DNA of 34,578 bases, taken from assembly GCA_012521615.1 (NCBI GenBank), contig JAAYMA010000025.1:1-34578 (forward strand), read 5' to 3'. The notes under the pieces are model-generated. The model saw nothing but the letters and a program-made list of their open reading frames with translations. It ran no database searches and was not told the origin of the DNA. Positions 9,305 through 17,061 of the stretch are shown here, piece by piece; the first letter of the stretch is position 1; every line of letters begins with the position of its first letter. Both the position numbers and the translations under genes were made by a program. Source of the DNA: Clostridiaceae bacterium (lineage in GTDB: Bacteria; Bacillota; Clostridia; DSM-8532).

Positions 9305-10417
9305 ATGGCTAGTGTAACACTTAAGAATGTTTACAAGGTATATCCGGGAAATGTGACAGCGGTCAGTGACTTTAATATTGAAATCGAAGACAAAGAGTTT
9401 ATTATTCTGGTCGGTCCTTCCGGTTGCGGAAAGACTACAACTCTGAGAATGATTGCAGGACTTGAGGAAATTACTTCGGGGGAATTGTACATAGGGGACA
9501 AGCTATGTAATGACGTTGCCCCTAAAGACAGAGATATAGCAATGGTTTTCCAGAACTATGCTCTGTATCCTCATATGACTGTATTTGACAATATGGCATT
9601 CGGTCTGAAGCTCAGAAAAGTACCTAAGGATGAAATAAAGCGAAGAGTTCATGAAGCGGCAAGAATTTTGTCAATAGAACATCTCTTGGACAGAAAACCG
9701 AAGGCTCTTTCCGGTGGACAGAGACAGCGTGTTGCTCTCGGTCGTGCTATAGTTCGTGAACCTAAGGTGTTCCTCATGGACGAACCTCTTTCCAACCTGG
9801 ACGCCAAGCTCAGGGTTCAGATGAGAACCGAGATTTCAAAACTCCATCAAAGACTGCAGACCACATTTATCTACGTTACCCATGACCAGACAGAAGCTCT
9901 TACAATGGGTACCAGAATAGTTGTTATGAAAGACGGATTTGTACAGCAGATTGACAGTCCTCAGAAGCTTTATGATGAGCCTGTTAACCTCTTTGTTGCT
10001 GGCTTTATCGGCAGTCCTCAGATGAACTTTGTTAACGTTGTAGTTGAAAAAGAGGATGACAAAGTTTATCTGAAATTTGCTAAAGACAAGCTCGAAATTC
10101 CTGCATACAAGGGTAAAGTTCTTGAAGAGCAGGGCTATGTGGGCAAAGAAGTTATTCTTGGAATTCGTCCAGAAGATATTTATGATGAAGATACCCCACA
10201 TACCAGTGATTGTACCAGCACATTAGGTGCGGACATTGAGGTTACTGAGAGACTCGGTTCAGAGACTTTCCTCTATGGTCTGATTAATGACGTTAACTTC
10301 ATAGCACGTGTAAGTCCGAAGTCTACAACTCAGCCTGGAGATAATGTAAGATTAATATTTGACATGGCTAAAGCTCATATCTTTGATAAAGAAACTGAAA
10401 AAGCCATTGTTCACTAA
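9305..10417 (+). CDS. msmX: Multi-sugar ABC transporter ATPase (MsmX/UgpC type)
   Basis: This 370-residue ATPase energises carbohydrate ABC importers on the cytoplasmic face. Motifs in order: Walker A GPSGCGKTT (37-45), Q-loop Q83, signature LSGGQ (135-139), Walker B VFLMDE (155-160) and switch H193. Residues from about 235 form the OB-type regulatory domain of the MalK/UgpC subfamily (GIRPEDI is typical). No permease or binding-protein genes are adjacent, and it is framed by its own terminators. That suggests a stand-alone ATPase shared by several sugar transporters, as MsmX is in B. subtilis. GGGAGGG lies 8-9 nt before the ATG. The exact partners cannot be read from this window. Confidence 0.9.
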   Translation: MASVTLKNVYKVYPGNVTAVSDFNIEIEDKEFIILVGPSGCGKTTTLRMIAGLEEITSGELYIGDKLCNDVAPKDRDIAMVFQNYALYPHMTVFDNMAFGLKLRKVPKDEIKRRVHEAARILSIEHLLDRKPKALSGGQRQRVALGRAIVREPKVFLMDEPLSNLDAKLRVQMRTEISKLHQRLQTTFIYVTHDQTEALTMGTRIVVMKDGFVQQIDSPQKLYDEPVNLFVAGFIGSPQMNFVNVVVEKEDDKVYLKFAKDKLEIPAYKGKVLEEQGYVGKEVILGIRPEDIYDEDTPHTSDCTSTLGADIEVTERLGSETFLYGLINDVNFIARVSPKSTTQPGDNVRLIFDMAKAHIFDKETEKAIVH

Positions 10418-10430
10418 TACACTGCTAATA

Positions 10431-10457
10431 ACGAGGGGACATCAGGTCCCCTTGTTT
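10431..10457 (+). terminator. First terminator after msmX
   Basis: A 10-bp stem (ACGAGGGGAC with GTCCCCTTGT, 10431-10440 and 10446-10455) with a 5-nt loop is followed by a broken T-rich run. Confidence 0.75.
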
Positions 10458-10477
10458 GATTTTGCGGGAGTTTATAC

Positions 10478-10502
10478 AGGGCGGGGAAACCTGCCCTTTT
10501 TG
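10478..10502 (+). terminator. Second, tandem terminator after msmX
   Basis: AGGGCGGG (10478-10485) pairs with CCTGCCCT (10490-10497) around a GAAA tetraloop, followed directly by TTTT. With the previous hairpin it forms a tandem terminator, suggesting strong transcription of msmX. Confidence 0.85.
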
Positions 10503-10537
10503 CCGTTTGTAATTTTATCAGCATTACTTATGTTATG

Positions 10538-10566
10538 TTGCGGTAAAATGTGGAATAATATATATA
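10538..10566 (+). promoter_or_regulatory. Candidate promoter of the Asp23-fusion/sigH unit
   Basis: TTGCGG (10538-10543) and TATATA (10561-10566) are 17 bp apart, about 39 bp before the TTG start at 10605. Confidence 0.4.
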
Positions 10567-10604
10567 ACTGCTTAGACCTTACATTATAAAACGGAGGGAA
10601 TTTA

Positions 10605-11432
10605 TTGCGATTAGTAGCTTTTGTTGGCCCAAGCGGAACAGGTAAAAGTCACCGTGCTTTGTGGATTGCGCATGAAAATGGGCTTGATTATATAATTGAT
10701 GATGGTCTTCTGATACATGAAAACAGGATTGTTGCGGGCAAATCTGCCAAAAAAGCGCCTTCCAGGCTGGCTTCTGTGAGGGTTGCGCTTTTTACAGACA
10801 ATGATCACAGAGCTGAAGTTAAGCAAGCCATACAGGAGAAAAAACCCAGAGGTTTGCTGATTTTGGGAACCTCTGACAAGATGGTGGACAGGATAGCTGA
10901 AGTACTTGAATTAGGACCTTTTGACAAACGAATATATATAGAGGATGTGGCGAGCAGATACGAAATTGAGCTGGCCCAAAAAACAAGGATTAACCAGGGC
11001 AAGCATGTAATCCCGGTGCCAGCGGTTCAGCTTAAGAAACAGTTTTCGGGCTATTTTCTGGATCCTTTACAGATATTCAGACGGAAAGGCAAAGGCTCTT
11101 TCCAGAAAATTGGCGAAAAAGCAGTTGTCCGCCCCACTTTCAGCTATTATGGAAATTATACCATTTCGGATTATGCTATTTACCAGGTTGTGAATCATAT
11201 TATTAAGGGCATGCCTGAAATGGAACGTGTGTCAAGGTTCAGAGCCAATAATGAGCCTGATGGACTTTATATAGACATGGATGTTATAATGGTTTTTGGT
11301 TACAACTTAGCTGAAGCTGTTCGTTCAGCCCAGAGAACAATCATAAAAGAACTCGATCGATTTGCCGGTTTCAATGTTAACAGACTGAATATTTATATTA
11401 AAAACCTTGTGCTTAAAAAAACCAAGAATTGA
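10605..11432 (+). CDS. P-loop NTPase fused to an Asp23/Gls24 domain
   Basis: The 275-residue protein joins two parts. The N-terminal part has a clean Walker A motif, GPSGTGKS (8-15), in a compact NTPase-like region to about residue 130 that includes RGLLILGTSDK. The C-terminal part (about 185-272) matches the Asp23/Gls24 (DUF322) fold, with TISDYAIYQVVNHI, a mid-domain DGLYIDMDVIMVFG and the terminal amphipathic helix pair. Asp23 proteins are alkaline-shock or envelope-associated factors in Gram-positives; the role of the fused form is not known to me. The start is TTG with ACGGAGGG 7 nt upstream. It lies 37 bp before sigH and is probably cotranscribed with it. No membrane segment is visible. 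The nucleotide bound and the output are open questions. Confidence 0.8.
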   Translation: MRLVAFVGPSGTGKSHRALWIAHENGLDYIIDDGLLIHENRIVAGKSAKKAPSRLASVRVALFTDNDHRAEVKQAIQEKKPRGLLILGTSDKMVDRIAEVLELGPFDKRIYIEDVASRYEIELAQKTRINQGKHVIPVPAVQLKKQFSGYFLDPLQIFRRKGKGSFQKIGEKAVVRPTFSYYGNYTISDYAIYQVVNHIIKGMPEMERVSRFRANNEPDGLYIDMDVIMVFGYNLAEAVRSAQRTIIKELDRFAGFNVNRLNIYIKNLVLKKTKN

Positions 11433-11469
11433 ATACATCTCTGGACAAGCAGTATTCAGGGAGGCAATC

Positions 11470-12135
11470 ATGAAACAAGCAGATCTTTCTAATAAGGAAG
11501 ACCAGAAAAACTATTGTGATTATGCCAATATGGAAGATGAAGAGGTTATAGCCTACGCCCGCTCGGGCTGCACCCGGGGAATGGAGTATTTAATCGAAAA
11601 ATATAAACCCCTTGTACGAGCAAAAGCAAGGAGTTATTTCCTGGTGGGGGCAGACCGGGAAGACATTGTACAGGAGGGCATGATAGGTCTATTTAAGGCT
11701 GTCAGGGATTATGATGATGAAAAGTGTATCCCTTTCAGAGCCTTTGCAGATATGTGCGTCACAAGGCAGATAATAACTGCTGTAAAAACGGCAACGCGTC
11801 AAAAGCACATACCTCTTAATTCTTCCATATCGCTGAGCAGAAGGATGTATAACGATGAATCCAGCAAGGAACTTTCCGAGGTAATAGAGGAAGTTTCAGT
11901 TGCAAATCCTGAGGAGCTTGTAATAAGTAAAGAAGAGGTCAATGTGATAGAGAACAGGATTATGGAACTATTAAGCCCGTTTGAGCAGCAGGTTCTGTCC
12001 AGATATCTTGTGGGCATAGCTTATCAGGATATTGCAAAACAACTGAAAAGACCTGTTAAATCAATAGATAATGCACTTCAGAGGCTTAAAAGAAAAATAG
12101 AAAAATTTCTGAAAACCATGGATGAGGAATATTGA
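11470..12135 (+). CDS. sigH: RNA polymerase sigma-H factor (Spo0H)
   Basis: SigH directs early stationary-phase and sporulation transcription. The 221-residue protein has sigma region 2 (about 36-105), including RAKARSYFLVGADREDIVQEGMIGL split over 50-74, the -10 recognition part RQIITAVKTATRQKH, and region 4 (about 165-215) with the helix-turn-helix DIAKQLKRPVKSIDNALQR. These stretches match B. subtilis SigH closely. The open frame begins at 11407 inside the upstream gene, but ATG 11470 has GGGAGG 6 nt before it and the expected length. Sigma-H genes usually sit near rpmG-secE-nusG; here the neighbours are the Asp23-fusion gene and a hemerythrin. Confidence 0.95.
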   Translation: MKQADLSNKEDQKNYCDYANMEDEEVIAYARSGCTRGMEYLIEKYKPLVRAKARSYFLVGADREDIVQEGMIGLFKAVRDYDDEKCIPFRAFADMCVTRQIITAVKTATRQKHIPLNSSISLSRRMYNDESSKELSEVIEEVSVANPEELVISKEEVNVIENRIMELLSPFEQQVLSRYLVGIAYQDIAKQLKRPVKSIDNALQRLKRKIEKFLKTMDEEY

Positions 12136-12139
12136 CAAA

Positions 12140-12163
12140 ATGCCTGTTGAAATCAACAGGCAT
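12140..12163. terminator. Hairpin after sigH, possible terminator
   Basis: ATGCCTGTTGA (12140-12150) is the exact reverse complement of TCAACAGGCAT (12153-12163). There is no T-run on the plus strand. On the minus strand it is followed by TTTT. It may be a weak terminator or a protective 3' end hairpin for the sigH mRNA. Confidence 0.45.
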
Positions 12164-12193
12164 ACCTAAAATGTGCTAAAAAGGAGGTAAAGT

Positions 12194-12283
12194 ATGTTAA
12201 GGTATCAGTGTGGTTTTTATTATATAAAAAAATTGTCGAAAAAGCAAGAATTATATAAGCACAGGAAGCTGACATCATGGTAG
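12194..12283 (+). CDS. Candidate small basic protein, 29 codons
   Basis: This short ORF lies between the sigH hairpin and the hemerythrin gene. It has one of the best ribosome binding sites in the window, AAGGAGGT ending 5 nt before ATG. The predicted 29-residue peptide starts MLRYQCGFYYIKKLSKKQEL, is rich in Lys and aromatic residues, and has one cysteine. I do not recognise it. A 12-bp direct repeat, GTTAAGGTATCA, overlaps its start (12196-12207) and recurs just after its stop (12286-12297). It could be a real small protein, a leader peptide for the hemerythrin gene, or a decayed gene start. The strong ribosome binding site is the only positive evidence of translation. Confidence 0.4.
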   Translation: MLRYQCGFYYIKKLSKKQELYKHRKLTSW

Positions 12284-12323
12284 TAGTTAAGGTATCAATT
12301 TTAATTTCAGGGGAGGTATGGCC

Positions 12324-12749
12324 ATGGTAATTAAGTGGAATGACAAATATTCTTGCTTCGATGAAACAATAGACGCACAGCATAAGAAGCTTATTGATAT
12401 GATCAATGAAATCAACGAACTGGCAGAGCTTGATGATGGATACGACCGTTATGATGACATTGTAAGAATATTTGAAGGGCTTAAAGATTATGCTGTATAC
12501 CATTTTAGCTATGAAGAAAAGATGTTTGAAGAGAACGGATATGATTCCTTTAATACCAAAATTCAGAAACTTGAACACAATGGCTTTGTGAAGAAACTTG
12601 AATCAATCGATCTATATGAGATTGACGAAGACCAGATTGGTGCAGTCAGGGATCTTCTGGATTTCCTCAGCAAATGGCTGGATCATCATATTCTTGATGT
12701 AGACATGAGATTTGGTGAATTCTTAAGAGAAAAACATGAGAGACCTTGA
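12324..12749 (+). CDS. Bacteriohemerythrin
   Basis: This is a single-domain, 141-residue non-heme di-iron protein of the hemerythrin family, which binds O2 reversibly and in anaerobes is thought to sense or sequester oxygen. The ligand set is complete: H20 (DAQHKKL), H60 and E64 (YHFSYEE), H85 (LEHNGF), H121/H122 and D127 (LDHHILDVD). It has no signal peptide or fused sensor domain, so it is soluble and cytoplasmic. Two in-frame ATGs exist. The first (12318) is only 1 nt from GGGGAGG and the second (12324) is 7 nt away, so I use the second. Its stop codon overlaps the -35 box of the next promoter. Confidence 0.93.
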   Translation: MVIKWNDKYSCFDETIDAQHKKLIDMINEINELAELDDGYDRYDDIVRIFEGLKDYAVYHFSYEEKMFEENGYDSFNTKIQKLEHNGFVKKLESIDLYEIDEDQIGAVRDLLDFLSKWLDHHILDVDMRFGEFLREKHERP

Positions 12750-12774
12750 CAAAATATAGTATAATAATTATAAC
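12746..12774 (+). promoter_or_regulatory. Promoter of the zapA operon
   Basis: A perfect TTGACA (12746-12751) is followed by 17 bp and TATAAC (12769-12774). The -35 overlaps the hemerythrin stop codon (12747-12749). The leader to the zapA start is about 90 nt. Confidence 0.75.
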
Positions 12775-12869
12775 TTGGTTTCTGTTAAGAACGTTTCTGA
12801 TATTATTTGAGGATAGATATAATTAATGAATATACTTAAGAAAAGGAAGCACAGAGTGGAGCTGATAGC

Positions 12870-13295
12870 TTGGCTGAAAAAAATAACAGGCAAAAAAACA
12901 AGGTAACGGTTTACATAGCTGGAAACGAATATGTGATAGCAGGTCATGAAACTCCTGAGTACATACAGAAAGTTGCTTTGTATGTTGATCAAAAACTTCG
13001 TGAGATTACTCAGAAAAATCATTTCCTAAGTACTTCAATGGCCTCTATTTTGGCTTCTGTCAATATGGCTGATGAAGTATTCCGTATGAGGGAGAGATTG
13101 GAAGAATCAGAAAAGGAACTGGCAGAACTTAAAAGAAAGTATAAGCAAAATAATGAAGAACTTCAGCATCTGAAAATGGAGAATGACATGCTTAAAAAAA
13201 GGGAAACTCAGCTTCAGATCGAGCTTACAAGGAGAGAAACTGAAATAAAAGAAGTGAGAAATACAATTAATGCTATGAACAGAAAAAACCAATGA
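12870..13295 (+). CDS. zapA: Cell-division protein ZapA
   Basis: ZapA cross-links FtsZ filaments at the division ring. In this 141-residue protein the N-terminal ZapA head (about 10-60) shows NKVTVYIAGNEYVIAGHETPEY split over 10-31 and the conserved KVALYVDQKLREI, followed by a long coiled coil (about 70-140) rich in Glu, Lys and Leu. The coiled coil is longer than in the roughly 85-residue B. subtilis ZapA. The start codon is TTG, chosen because GGAG lies 8 nt upstream and no ATG or GTG is available in frame nearby. It heads an operon with the next two genes (gaps of 16 and 9 bp). Confidence 0.9.
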   Translation: MAEKNNRQKNKVTVYIAGNEYVIAGHETPEYIQKVALYVDQKLREITQKNHFLSTSMASILASVNMADEVFRMRERLEESEKELAELKRKYKQNNEELQHLKMENDMLKKRETQLQIELTRRETEIKEVRNTINAMNRKNQ

Positions 13296-13311
13296 GTAAT
13301 GGAGGCATACT

Positions 13312-13968
13312 ATGTTTGATCAAATGATTTCCTGGGGAGAGCTAATAACTGTAGTTCTGTTTATTTTAGGCTCAGCACTCCTTTTTTATTTGATACTTGC
13401 AATTTCCAATATTCTGAAGGTTATCAGGAATATAAATCAGATCCTTGAAACAAATAAGGACAATATTCAAAAATCTATTGAAAAACTTCCCGAAATTACC
13501 GACAATACCGCAAAAATAACCGGGATGGTAAAAGATAACATAGAAAGCATTCAGGACGTAGTTAAGGATGTAGGCAAAATATCTGAAACGGTAAGAGATG
13601 GAGTAGAGACCATTCAAAAAGATATTCTGCTCAAAGTAAAATCAATTTTAGATATTATTGATACCATCAGAAAATATTTTGAGAAAAGGAAAGAAATAAG
13701 CAAAAAGAAGAAAAAAGGAGCAGGAACGGTTTACAGGTATAAATATAAGCCTGACCAGGACAAGCCTGATGAAGTGGAAATTGTCACAACAGAAGGACAA
13801 GATGAAATTCCGTATGAAGAATATGTAGAAATAAAATCCGAAGGCAAGCCCGATGATTCGGACAGCACTGAAAAAACAGATGTAAGGCCTGAGGATGCAA
13901 AAACCCGTGATACTTCAAACAATATAGAAAACATCAAAAATGATACATCAACAACAGAGGAAGGCTAA
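13312..13968 (+). CDS. Membrane-anchored coiled-coil protein (DUF948-like)
   Basis: This 218-residue protein has one N-terminal transmembrane helix (about 10-34), then a long amphipathic helix (about 38-130) with repeated valine, isoleucine and aspartate spacing like DUF948/YtxG-type or apolipoprotein-like proteins. A lysine cluster follows (about 124-136, ISKKKKKG), then a disordered, acidic tail (about 150-218) rich in Asp, Glu, Ser and Thr. No enzyme motif is visible. It lies between zapA and the U32 gene, with GGAGG 7 nt before its start. A scaffold or surface-stress role is possible but not shown by the sequence. The family assignment rests on overall pattern only. Confidence 0.75.
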   Translation: MFDQMISWGELITVVLFILGSALLFYLILAISNILKVIRNINQILETNKDNIQKSIEKLPEITDNTAKITGMVKDNIESIQDVVKDVGKISETVRDGVETIQKDILLKVKSILDIIDTIRKYFEKRKEISKKKKKGAGTVYRYKYKPDQDKPDEVEIVTTEGQDEIPYEEYVEIKSEGKPDDSDSTEKTDVRPEDAKTRDTSNNIENIKNDTSTTEEG

Positions 13969-13977
13969 CGACAAGAT

Positions 13978-16422
13978 ATGAGAAAACATAAATTTGAGCT
14001 GCTTGCGCCTGCAGGCAGCTTTGAATCACTTAAGGCTGCAATTCAAAATGGTGCTGACGCTGTTTACTTAGGCGGCGGTAAATTTAATGCAAGGATAAAT
14101 GCAGATAATTTTACAGGGGAAGACCTTGCAAAAGCAATTGATTATGTCCATGAACGGGGAAAAAAGATATATATAACCTTAAATACTCTGTTAAAGGATG
14201 AGGAACTGAATCAAGCCCTTGAGTTTGCCCGATATATCTACCACCAGGGTGCTGATGCAGTTATAATACAGGATTTGGGGCTGCTCAGGCTTCTTAATAA
14301 ATATTTGCCTGATCTTGAGATACATGCCAGCACCCAGACCACAACCGTTGACCACAGGACCATATCAGAGCTTGAAAAACTTGGTGTAAAACGGGTGGTT
14401 CTGGCCAGGGAACTATCCTATGACGAAATAAAAAACATTTCATTGAATTCCAATATAGAGTTGGAAGTATTTGTCCACGGAGCTTTGTGTGTATGTTATT
14501 CCGGACAGTGTCTAATGTCCAGCTTTATCGGAGGCAGAAGCGGAAACAGGGGGCTTTGTGCCCAGCCCTGCAGATTGCCCTATTCTGTTTTGGATGATAG
14601 CGGAAAATATTCAATGTCCTCTTATATTTTAAGTACTCGTGATCTATCTGCTATAGATTTTTTGCCACAACTGAGAGCCGCAGGTATTTCATCCCTTAAA
14701 CTTGAAGGGAGAATGAAATCTCCTGAATATGTTGCTGTGGTCACATCAGTTTACAGAAAATATATAGATTTATTGGAAGCAAATCCCAATACGGAATATC
14801 GGGTAGAAGACCAGGACAGAAAAAAATTATTGCAGGCCTTCAGCAGGGGCGGATTTACAAACAGTTATCTGGAAAATAACCGGAACCCTGCCGGCTTCAT
14901 GTATCCAAAGTATCCCAAAAACCAGGGAGTTCTGATCGGGAAAGTAGTGGATATAAAGCCGCCTTATGTAAAGATTGCCCTTGAAGAGGACATAAAAATG
15001 GGCGACGGGATAGAGATACATCATGGAGAGGGGCTACCCGGAAGTCTTATTGTAACGGATATTATGATAGACAATAAGCATGAAAGGGAAGCTTTTAGCG
15101 GAAGTTCCCCCTGGGTGGGCGATGTAAAAGGTTTTGTCAAAAAAGGAAGCAAAGTGTACAGGACTTTGTCAAAAGCATTGTTTGATGAAGCCAGAACCAG
15201 CTATGAAGGTCCCGAGGAAAAGCTTGTTCCGCTTCATATGCACATTACTCTGAAAATCGGGGAAAAAGCAGTTCTTGAAGCGAAAGATATTGAAGGCAAC
15301 TCAGTTTGTGTCAGGTCGGATATAACAGCTGAGGAGGCCATAAACCGGCCCCTTGATGAAAAGCGGATAAAAGAGCAGCTCCAGAAGACAGGAAATACTC
15401 CTTATTATCTACATTCTCTGGATTTGGATACAGATAATAAGAGCATAATACCCATTTCGGCACTAAATGAGCTTCGCCGCAGTGCCCTCGAAAAAATAAG
15501 CGAAATAAGAAGATTGAAGTCAAAGAGAAATATTGAGTTTGACAGAGAGTTCGACAAAAATATTTATAACTCTTCACAGACCCGAAAGAATAATAAAACC
15601 CTTGAGCTTTCAGCATTTTTCTATGAGTTCCCTGAGGATTTAACGGATTTTGATAAAATTGTTTCAAGGGTATATCTCCCTGTCAGCAATGAAGAAGAGC
15701 TGGACAAGGCTAAAAAAGAGTTCAGCGGTCAGATTTTTCTTTGGACTTACCCTGTGCTTAAGGATGCTGAGCTTGACTGGACAATAAAAAATCTCTGTGA
15801 AGTTTCAGAATATTTTGACGGAATAACTTATGGAAGTTTAGGGGCATTGAAGGTTTTTAAAGAAGCTTTTCCCGAGAAAATGCTTTGCACGGAATACAGT
15901 ATGAATATATTCAATAATGAGGCTTTAAGGCTGCACAAAGAGCTGGGGGCAGAAACCGCTGTATTATCACCCGAACTTACGCTCCTTGAGGCAGAGAAAC
16001 TTTCTTGTCAGGGATTGAAACTGGAGGCTGCAGTATTCGGAAGATTTCCGCTTATGGTTATGGAAAACTGTCCTTCAGGTGCCGATAAGGGATGTTCAGG
16101 ATTATGTGAAAAATGCAGCAGGAGAGATGGGTATCTGAAAGACAGAAAGGGCAAAATTTTTCCTTATGTCAGAAACCCCTTGTTTGGAAGAACCCAGATA
16201 TTTAATTCCAACACATTATTTATGGATGATACAGAAAGCCTTGAAAAGACCGATTTTTCATTGCTCAGGCTCATTTTCACAAAGGATAATATGGAATACG
16301 GAAACAAAATCGCGAATTATTTCTATAACAGAATAAAGGACAAAGGATACAGAGATGACCAATTGGTTAGGAAAATCAAAGAAAAAGGATATACTAAAGG
16401 TCATTGGTTCAGAGGTGTGTGA
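13978..16422 (+). CDS. U32 family protein with DUF3656 domain (RlhA-like)
   Basis: The 814-residue protein has an N-terminal U32 TIM-barrel (about 5-250), starting FELLAPAGSFESLKAAI and carrying the U32 signature FVHGALCVCYSGQC with further cysteines in RGLCAQPC. A DUF3656 region follows (about 380-500), and a C-terminal repeat of the U32 type holds a second Cys cluster, NCPSGADKGCSGLCEKC (about 701-717). U32 proteins were first called collagenases, but E. coli RlhA, with this architecture, is needed for hydroxylation of a 23S rRNA cytidine, and its relatives act on tRNA uridines. RNA hydroxylation with an Fe-S site is therefore likelier than proteolysis. It is longer than RlhA because of the C-terminal half. 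It is third in the zapA operon. Confidence 0.88.
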   Translation: MRKHKFELLAPAGSFESLKAAIQNGADAVYLGGGKFNARINADNFTGEDLAKAIDYVHERGKKIYITLNTLLKDEELNQALEFARYIYHQGADAVIIQDLGLLRLLNKYLPDLEIHASTQTTTVDHRTISELEKLGVKRVVLARELSYDEIKNISLNSNIELEVFVHGALCVCYSGQCLMSSFIGGRSGNRGLCAQPCRLPYSVLDDSGKYSMSSYILSTRDLSAIDFLPQLRAAGISSLKLEGRMKSPEYVAVVTSVYRKYIDLLEANPNTEYRVEDQDRKKLLQAFSRGGFTNSYLENNRNPAGFMYPKYPKNQGVLIGKVVDIKPPYVKIALEEDIKMGDGIEIHHGEGLPGSLIVTDIMIDNKHEREAFSGSSPWVGDVKGFVKKGSKVYRTLSKALFDEARTSYEGPEEKLVPLHMHITLKIGEKAVLEAKDIEGNSVCVRSDITAEEAINRPLDEKRIKEQLQKTGNTPYYLHSLDLDTDNKSIIPISALNELRRSALEKISEIRRLKSKRNIEFDREFDKNIYNSSQTRKNNKTLELSAFFYEFPEDLTDFDKIVSRVYLPVSNEEELDKAKKEFSGQIFLWTYPVLKDAELDWTIKNLCEVSEYFDGITYGSLGALKVFKEAFPEKMLCTEYSMNIFNNEALRLHKELGAETAVLSPELTLLEAEKLSCQGLKLEAAVFGRFPLMVMENCPSGADKGCSGLCEKCSRRDGYLKDRKGKIFPYVRNPLFGRTQIFNSNTLFMDDTESLEKTDFSLLRLIFTKDNMEYGNKIANYFYNRIKDKGYRDDQLVRKIKEKGYTKGHWFRGV

Positions 16423-16542: not shown

Positions 16543-17061
16543 ATGATAGACGTTTATGTTGAAACTTTACGGGAAGATATTACTCTGCCCTTTTATGCAA
16601 ATCCTTACGATGCAGGAATGGATGTTTGTGCAGCTGAAGATGTAATGATTAAGCCTGGTGAGACGGTGATTATTCCTACAGGCCTTAAGTTTGCAATACC
16701 TGAGGGCTATGAGATACAGGTAAGACCAAGGAGCGGGATCAGCTACAGAACACCGCTCAGGATTTCCAATTCGCCGGGCACAATAGATGCAGGATACAGG
16801 GATGAGCTTGGGATAATTATGACCAATACCTCCCCTGAGATCAATAAGGAAGATAATAGTGAAATCAGCGGGGATAATAAAGAAATTTTCACTTTGGATA
16901 CGAAAGGCAATAAAAAAGGAATATATTTAATAAAAAAAGGGGAGAGGGTGGCTCAGTTGGTTCTTGCCCAGGTACCCCGGATGAATCTTATTAAGGTAGA
17001 TTCGGTATCCGGCATAGGTTCTAACAGGGGTGGAGGATTTGGATCTACCGGAGTCAAGTAA
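16543..17061 (+). CDS. dut: dUTP diphosphatase (trimeric dUTPase)
   Basis: Dut hydrolyses dUTP to dUMP, keeping uracil out of DNA and feeding thymidylate synthesis. All five family motifs are present in the 172-residue chain: I YDAGMDVCA (22-30), II RPRSGIS (61-67), III NSPGTIDAGYRDELGIIM (76-93), IV KKGERVAQLVL (131-141), and V RGGGFGSTG (162-170). An acidic, polar insert (about 98-126) separates motifs III and IV and accounts for the length above the usual 145 or so. AGGGGTGA precedes the ATG. It lies 47 bp before the peptidase gene. Confidence 0.95.
   Translation: MIDVYVETLREDITLPFYANPYDAGMDVCAAEDVMIKPGETVIIPTGLKFAIPEGYEIQVRPRSGISYRTPLRISNSPGTIDAGYRDELGIIMTNTSPEINKEDNSEISGDNKEIFTLDTKGNKKGIYLIKKGERVAQLVLAQVPRMNLIKVDSVSGIGSNRGGGFGSTGVK

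Follow-up and report, generated by a model that had tools for sequence, protein, structure and literature searches.

A widely conserved clostridial protein family that joins a P-loop domain to an Asp23 domain, with sigH as its neighbor in one bacterial family

What does a protein that combines a P-loop with an Asp23/Gls24 domain do, and does its position directly before sigH say anything about its function? This question is raised by a gene of a Clostridiaceae bacterium (assembly GCA_012521615.1, contig JAAYMA010000025.1), which we analyzed within a window, i.e., the whole stretch of 34,578 nucleotides, and compared with its relatives in the same bacterial family, class, and phylum. The features of the locus are summarized in Table 1.

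Table 1. Positions of the fusion gene, its parts, and the adjacent elements in the window.
Feature	Position	Strand	Basis and remarks
Terminator-like hairpin in the interval from the upstream ABC ATPase gene to the fusion gene	10430..10456	+	Scan
GGAGGG ribosome-binding site	10593..10598	+	6 bases 5' of TTG; read from the sequence
P-loop/Asp23 fusion gene	10605..11432	+	275 aa, TTG start; ORF call, full-length relatives
N-terminal P-loop NTPase domain (predicted), residues 1–135	10605..11009	+	AlphaFold model, modest P-loop kinase fold matches
Walker A GPSGTGKS, residues 8–15	10626..10649	+	In 138/138 distinct relatives
Asp-Asp pair, residues 32–33	10698..10703	+	Invariant in 128/128 aligned sequences
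Conserved linker, residues 136–185 (KKQFSG, EK..RPT.SY.G)	11010..11159	+	Conservation; low pLDDT in both models
Asp23 domain, residues 186–270, alpha-beta-beta-alpha-beta	11160..11414	+	Pfam, structure model
sigH	11470..12135	+	ATG at 11470, 37 bp 3' of the fusion gene; NCBIfam NF006148

The preliminary description had recognized a P-loop and an Asp23 domain in a single protein, and both parts were confirmed. Besides the Walker A motif, the Pfam Asp23 model (PF03780) matched with an E value of 1.2e-6 and a score of 29.4 bits (cut-off 28). This match spans residues 215–268, i.e., positions 53–107 of the 108 in the profile, or half of it; the structure model places the whole domain at about residues 186–270, in agreement with its earlier designation as the C-terminal third. 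The AAA and ABC models of Pfam matched the front of the protein weakly. A separate Asp23-like protein of 147 aa (L215), which the Asp23 part of the profile matched weakly, is encoded elsewhere in the genome. The start codon was TTG in 20 and ATG in 10 of the 30 loci of the bacterium's own family, and a similar GGAGG precedes the same start in most of the relatives shown. The hairpin upstream of the gene is not significant alone, as one terminator-like site was found between 10300 and 13000 against 2.1 expected in shuffled sequences. In the same interval, there were eight sigma-70 promoter-like sites against 8.1 expected, and none lay directly 5' of the fusion gene.

The results of the searches for relatives indicated that the fusion is conserved, a point that the preliminary description had proposed to check. 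Full-length relatives occurred in 31 of the 32 genomes of the own family, with 60–82% identity. In the class sample, 163 of 291 genomes had a match at an E value of 1e-5, two of them weak, and 161 genomes were carriers of the full-length fusion; at the same threshold, all but one of the 163 contained a single copy. In the phylum sample, full-length relatives were present in 106 of 249 genomes, a count read by eye from the matches with E < 1e-55, one of which covers residues 1–181 only. The Asp23 domain was matched in all 82 relatives scanned (E 0.01). The Walker A motif was present in 126 of 126 loci and, in a larger set, in 138 of 138 distinct sequences; the Walker lysine, the loss of which had been raised as a possible objection to the earlier proposal, was therefore kept throughout. 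A profile of residues 1–185 matched 107 of the 249 phylum genomes (E 1e-3), and when these were compared by eye, 106 were the full-length carriers and the other was a P-loop stretch of 30 residues. Apart from that stretch, no standalone N-terminal domain was found in the 249 genomes at this threshold. Because the N-terminal domain was seen nowhere without Asp23, this P-loop domain normally occurs as a fusion, and the identity within the family, together with the retention of the whole protein across the class, places the reading frame far beyond chance. The phage collection contained no relative of the fusion protein, and the plasmid collection contained one, in a Monoglobus record.

The fusion protein thus represents a real, old, and widely conserved clostridial protein family. 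Roughly one in two of the sampled clostridial genomes has a single copy of this enzyme-like protein with some 30 invariant residues, and, judging by the searches made, the family apparently has no prior study: no paper among the literature matches listed describes the fusion. One candidate, PMC11244957, had appeared to combine Walker A with Asp23/Gls24 and was rejected; in the part of its text that produced the match, “Walker A” is the name of an author.

We also analyzed how conservation is distributed along the protein. Among 106 distinct sequences, the mean conservation was 0.65 for residues 2–135, 0.71 for residues 136–188, and 0.42 for residues 189–275, and the numbers of positions conserved at 95% or more were 26, 17 (of 53), and 0, respectively. 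Over 128 sequences, 30 positions in residues 1–185 were invariant, including K14, S15, D32, D33, K49, R128, H134, and R176. Since the conservation lies in the P-loop domain and the linker while the Asp23 domain drifts, the front would be the active part and the tail scaffold-like. The AlphaFold model of residues 1–185 had a mean pLDDT of 84–97 in blocks up to residue 130. Taken together, the models were confident for residues 1–130 and for the greater part of the Asp23 domain; confidence was poor for residues ∼136–185, the most conserved part. That this linker is highly conserved yet poorly modeled suggests a segment that becomes ordered upon binding.

The structure models point, at a modest fold score, to a P-loop NTPase fold for the N-terminal domain. 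The best comparison gave a Z score of 6.6 with an rmsd of 3.6 over 123 aligned residues, a level that is common by chance; the entries with the highest Z scores were P-loop proteins, and the matches listed were mostly P-loop kinases (Clp1, adenylate kinase, T4 polynucleotide kinase, and thymidylate kinase). Foldseek returned no match for this domain with E < 1e-3. When solved structures were searched by sequence, 12 matches with E values up to 1 were obtained, and these were P-loop-level, designed, or unrelated proteins only, the best (E 5.8e-4) being a designed protein. No canonical Walker B was identified in the fusion protein. The invariant pair D32–D33 lies outside the classical Walker B position, but its conservation suggests that a metal-binding or catalytic role is likely. 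The modeled Asp23 domain resembled the C-terminal domains of cation diffusion facilitators (Z 11.1, rmsd 2.1, 80 aligned residues). Membership in the HPr kinase family (PF07475) was also considered, as the stretch from the P-loop to the Asp-Asp motif looked HprK-like, and was not adopted, as three control P-loop families scored the same or higher. The HprK profile alignment covered 33 columns only, with probabilities of 70–75, and the profile comparisons, all of them weak and limited to the P-loop, gave 75 for HprK, 79 for adenylate kinase, 76 for shikimate kinase, and 85 for the ABC ATPase MsmX. HprK was absent from the fold matches listed for the N-terminal domain, which excludes nothing.

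Our best reading, which we hold tentatively and rate as somewhat short of probable, is that the protein is a cytosolic, housekeeping-type, NTP-dependent (kinase-like) enzyme or switch, with assembly driven by its Asp23 domain and with no relation to sporulation. Nucleotide binding is strongly suggested by the invariant Walker A motif, through which the N-terminal domain would bind ATP or GTP. The Asp32–Asp33 pair probably holds a metal ion, and the conserved linker of 50 residues probably closes over the site once a substrate or a partner has bound. As an assembly module, the Asp23 domain would form a dimer or filament, and the nucleotide state and assembly would thereby be coupled. We lean slightly toward kinase-like phosphotransfer rather than a switch alone, given that nucleotide and polynucleotide kinases are the nearest folds and that invariant charged residues occur in the linker; this is no more than a lean, since the profile comparisons place HprK, adenylate kinase, shikimate kinase, and MsmX at the same distance. 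Assembly by way of the Asp23 domain is proposed by analogy with one distant relative, as PMC6954212 describes filaments of S. aureus Asp23 in vitro and AmaP holding Asp23 at the membrane. In B. subtilis, YqhY affects acetyl-CoA carboxylase, according to PMC5437119. Either role could be transferred to the fusion protein only with experiment. A bolder form of the reading appears distinctly improbable: the protein would be the first member of a class of enzymes whose NTP-driven, kinase-like P-loop domain controls an Asp23 filament, i.e., a nucleotide-gated clostridial scaffold, with a substrate new to P-loop kinases. The fusion offers a handle on the function of Asp23 domains, in that the attached nucleotide-binding domain could be inactivated through a single lysine.

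The gene neighborhoods outside the own family bear on a second reading, in which the protein is a P-loop enzyme that acts on nucleic acid or nucleotides, similar to a polynucleotide kinase, in repair or RNA turnover. Using Pfam, we tallied the nearest neighbors that encode 150 aa or more and lie no farther than 1.2 kb away. The upstream neighbors included Rex-type genes (CoA-binding plus Put_DNA-bind_N) in 9 of 39 cases, HhH-GPD in 4, YtxC in 4, YebC in 3, and PNPase in 2; downstream, OGG_N occurred in 8 of 38 cases, DHODB Fe-S in 5, DUF6062 in 4, and a glutamate dehydrogenase-type gene in 3. Two orders recurred, with gene names assigned partly by eye, beyond Pfam: Rex, the fusion gene, and a DNA glycosylase; and, in a large group, PNPase, the fusion gene, an unnamed protein, and glycyl-tRNA synthetase. 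The recurrence of the DNA glycosylase neighbors (downstream and upstream) and of PNPase, as well as the weak fold matches to Clp1 and to the polynucleotide kinases of T4 and C. thermocellum, are consistent with this reading. However, the neighbors may reflect inherited gene order, the Rex-type (9/39) and oxidoreductase (5/38) genes recur too, and fold scores of this size often arise by chance. We consider an enzyme of nucleic acids or nucleotides rather unlikely. A homologue flanked by Rex and an OGG-type DNA glycosylase was seen in many gut clostridia (loci L067–L127). In Monoglobus pectinilyticus, the order is aconitase, isocitrate dehydrogenase, Rex, the fusion homologue, DNA glycosylase, and aldolase.

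The public annotation of this M. pectinilyticus homologue is “Asp23/Gls24 family envelope stress response protein.” It accords with a third reading, in which the protein, like S. aureus Asp23, is linked to envelope stress or the membrane and is regulated by its P-loop domain. The presence of the Asp23 domain in every relative scanned argues for this, and the AmaP model matched weakly in 50 of the same 82. However, the annotated name derives from the domain, and the envelope-stress idea itself was taken from the name of the Asp23 family; this domain is less conserved than the other parts of the protein; and the nearest-neighbor families that recur in the tables shown include no gene for the envelope or for lipids. 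An envelope role is, in our view, fairly improbable.

We next consider the position beside sigH. The identity of the downstream gene as sigH and its distance, as given in the preliminary description, were confirmed: it matched the NF006148 equivalog model with 307.5 bits against a cut-off of 208 (3.7e-92), and the genome has no other close SigH gene, the next match having 28% identity. In 29 of the 30 own-family loci, which cover most genera, sigH is the next gene downstream and has the same orientation; the gaps are often < 60 bp, so co-transcription is likely in this family. At the exception (L030), 1,476 bases follow the fusion gene; one further match in the family yielded no locus. The surrounding order (9305–16422), comprising an MsmX-type ABC ATPase, the fusion gene, sigH, zapA, a DUF948-like protein, and a U32 peptidase, is preserved in most own-family loci with enough flank, and such a cluster is an unusual home for sigH. 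In the loci of this genus, a bacteriohemerythrin gene (12318–12749) lies between sigH and zapA; it was not found at four loci of a sister genus (L058, L059, L061, and L062). Farther downstream, a dUTPase-like ORF (16543–17061) has, as seen by eye, what seems to be an acidic insert of ∼30 residues before the last motif.

Outside the own family, searches with phmmer, using the SigH of the window as the query (E 1e-10), found sigH near the fusion gene in 0 of 61 loci (flanks up to 5 kb), 0 of 16 loci of a second set (flanks up to 1.5 kb), and none of 40 loci drawn from 39 further families (f2 contributing two; flanks of ∼4 kb if the contig is long enough), sets that overlap in genomes. The preliminary description had treated a loss of this linkage in most homologues as evidence against its proposal, and such a loss is what the three sets contain. 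The adjacency is the local gene order of one bacterial family and no clue to function, and a functional guess drawn from that family would be misguided.

A relationship with sporulation was examined through the SpoIVA ATPase (PF09547), present in 206 of the 291 class genomes. Both genes occurred in 116 genomes, the fusion only in 45, spoIVA only in 90, and neither in 40, i.e., spoIVA was found in 116 of 161 carriers and 90 of 130 non-carriers. No association was detected: the odds ratio was 1.15 (Fisher p 0.61, uncorrected for phylogeny), in a comparison limited by draft genomes and shared ancestry. The 45 carriers without spoIVA include the full set from two families, f39 (10 carriers) and f42 (7 carriers). 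A link to sporulation is not supported, and the fusion protein appears to stand outside the sporulation programme. Of the earlier idea of a nucleotide-dependent switch tied to sporulation, the nucleotide part is likely to hold, as argued above, and the sporulation part fell away. A switch acting on SigH or on the entry into sporulation, at least in the own family, where sigH is next door and probably co-transcribed, is very unlikely in view of the absence of sigH from the neighborhoods in all three outside sets and of the distribution of spoIVA.

Three known systems are closest to the fusion protein. It shares its C-terminal domain with the Asp23/Gls24 family (PF03780, DUF322), whose members S. 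aureus Asp23 and B. subtilis YqhY and YloU are small single-domain proteins, whereas the fusion has 275 aa and a private, conserved P-loop domain and linker ahead of Asp23. With the P-loop kinases (adenylate, shikimate, and polynucleotide kinases, and HPr kinase), it has the Walker A motif and the P-loop fold in common. In the profile alignments, shikimate kinase and HprK, like the fusion protein, carry Asp residues shortly after strand 2, and these residues are catalytic in both enzymes. The fusion differs from these kinases in that the similarity is confined to the P-loop and strand 2, none of their lid or substrate motifs was recognized in it, and it adds the conserved linker and the Asp23 tail. 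The modeled Asp23 domain has the same fold as the C-terminal domain of the cation diffusion facilitator MamM, a match of fold only with 12% identity, and, unlike MamM, the fusion protein has no membrane domain.
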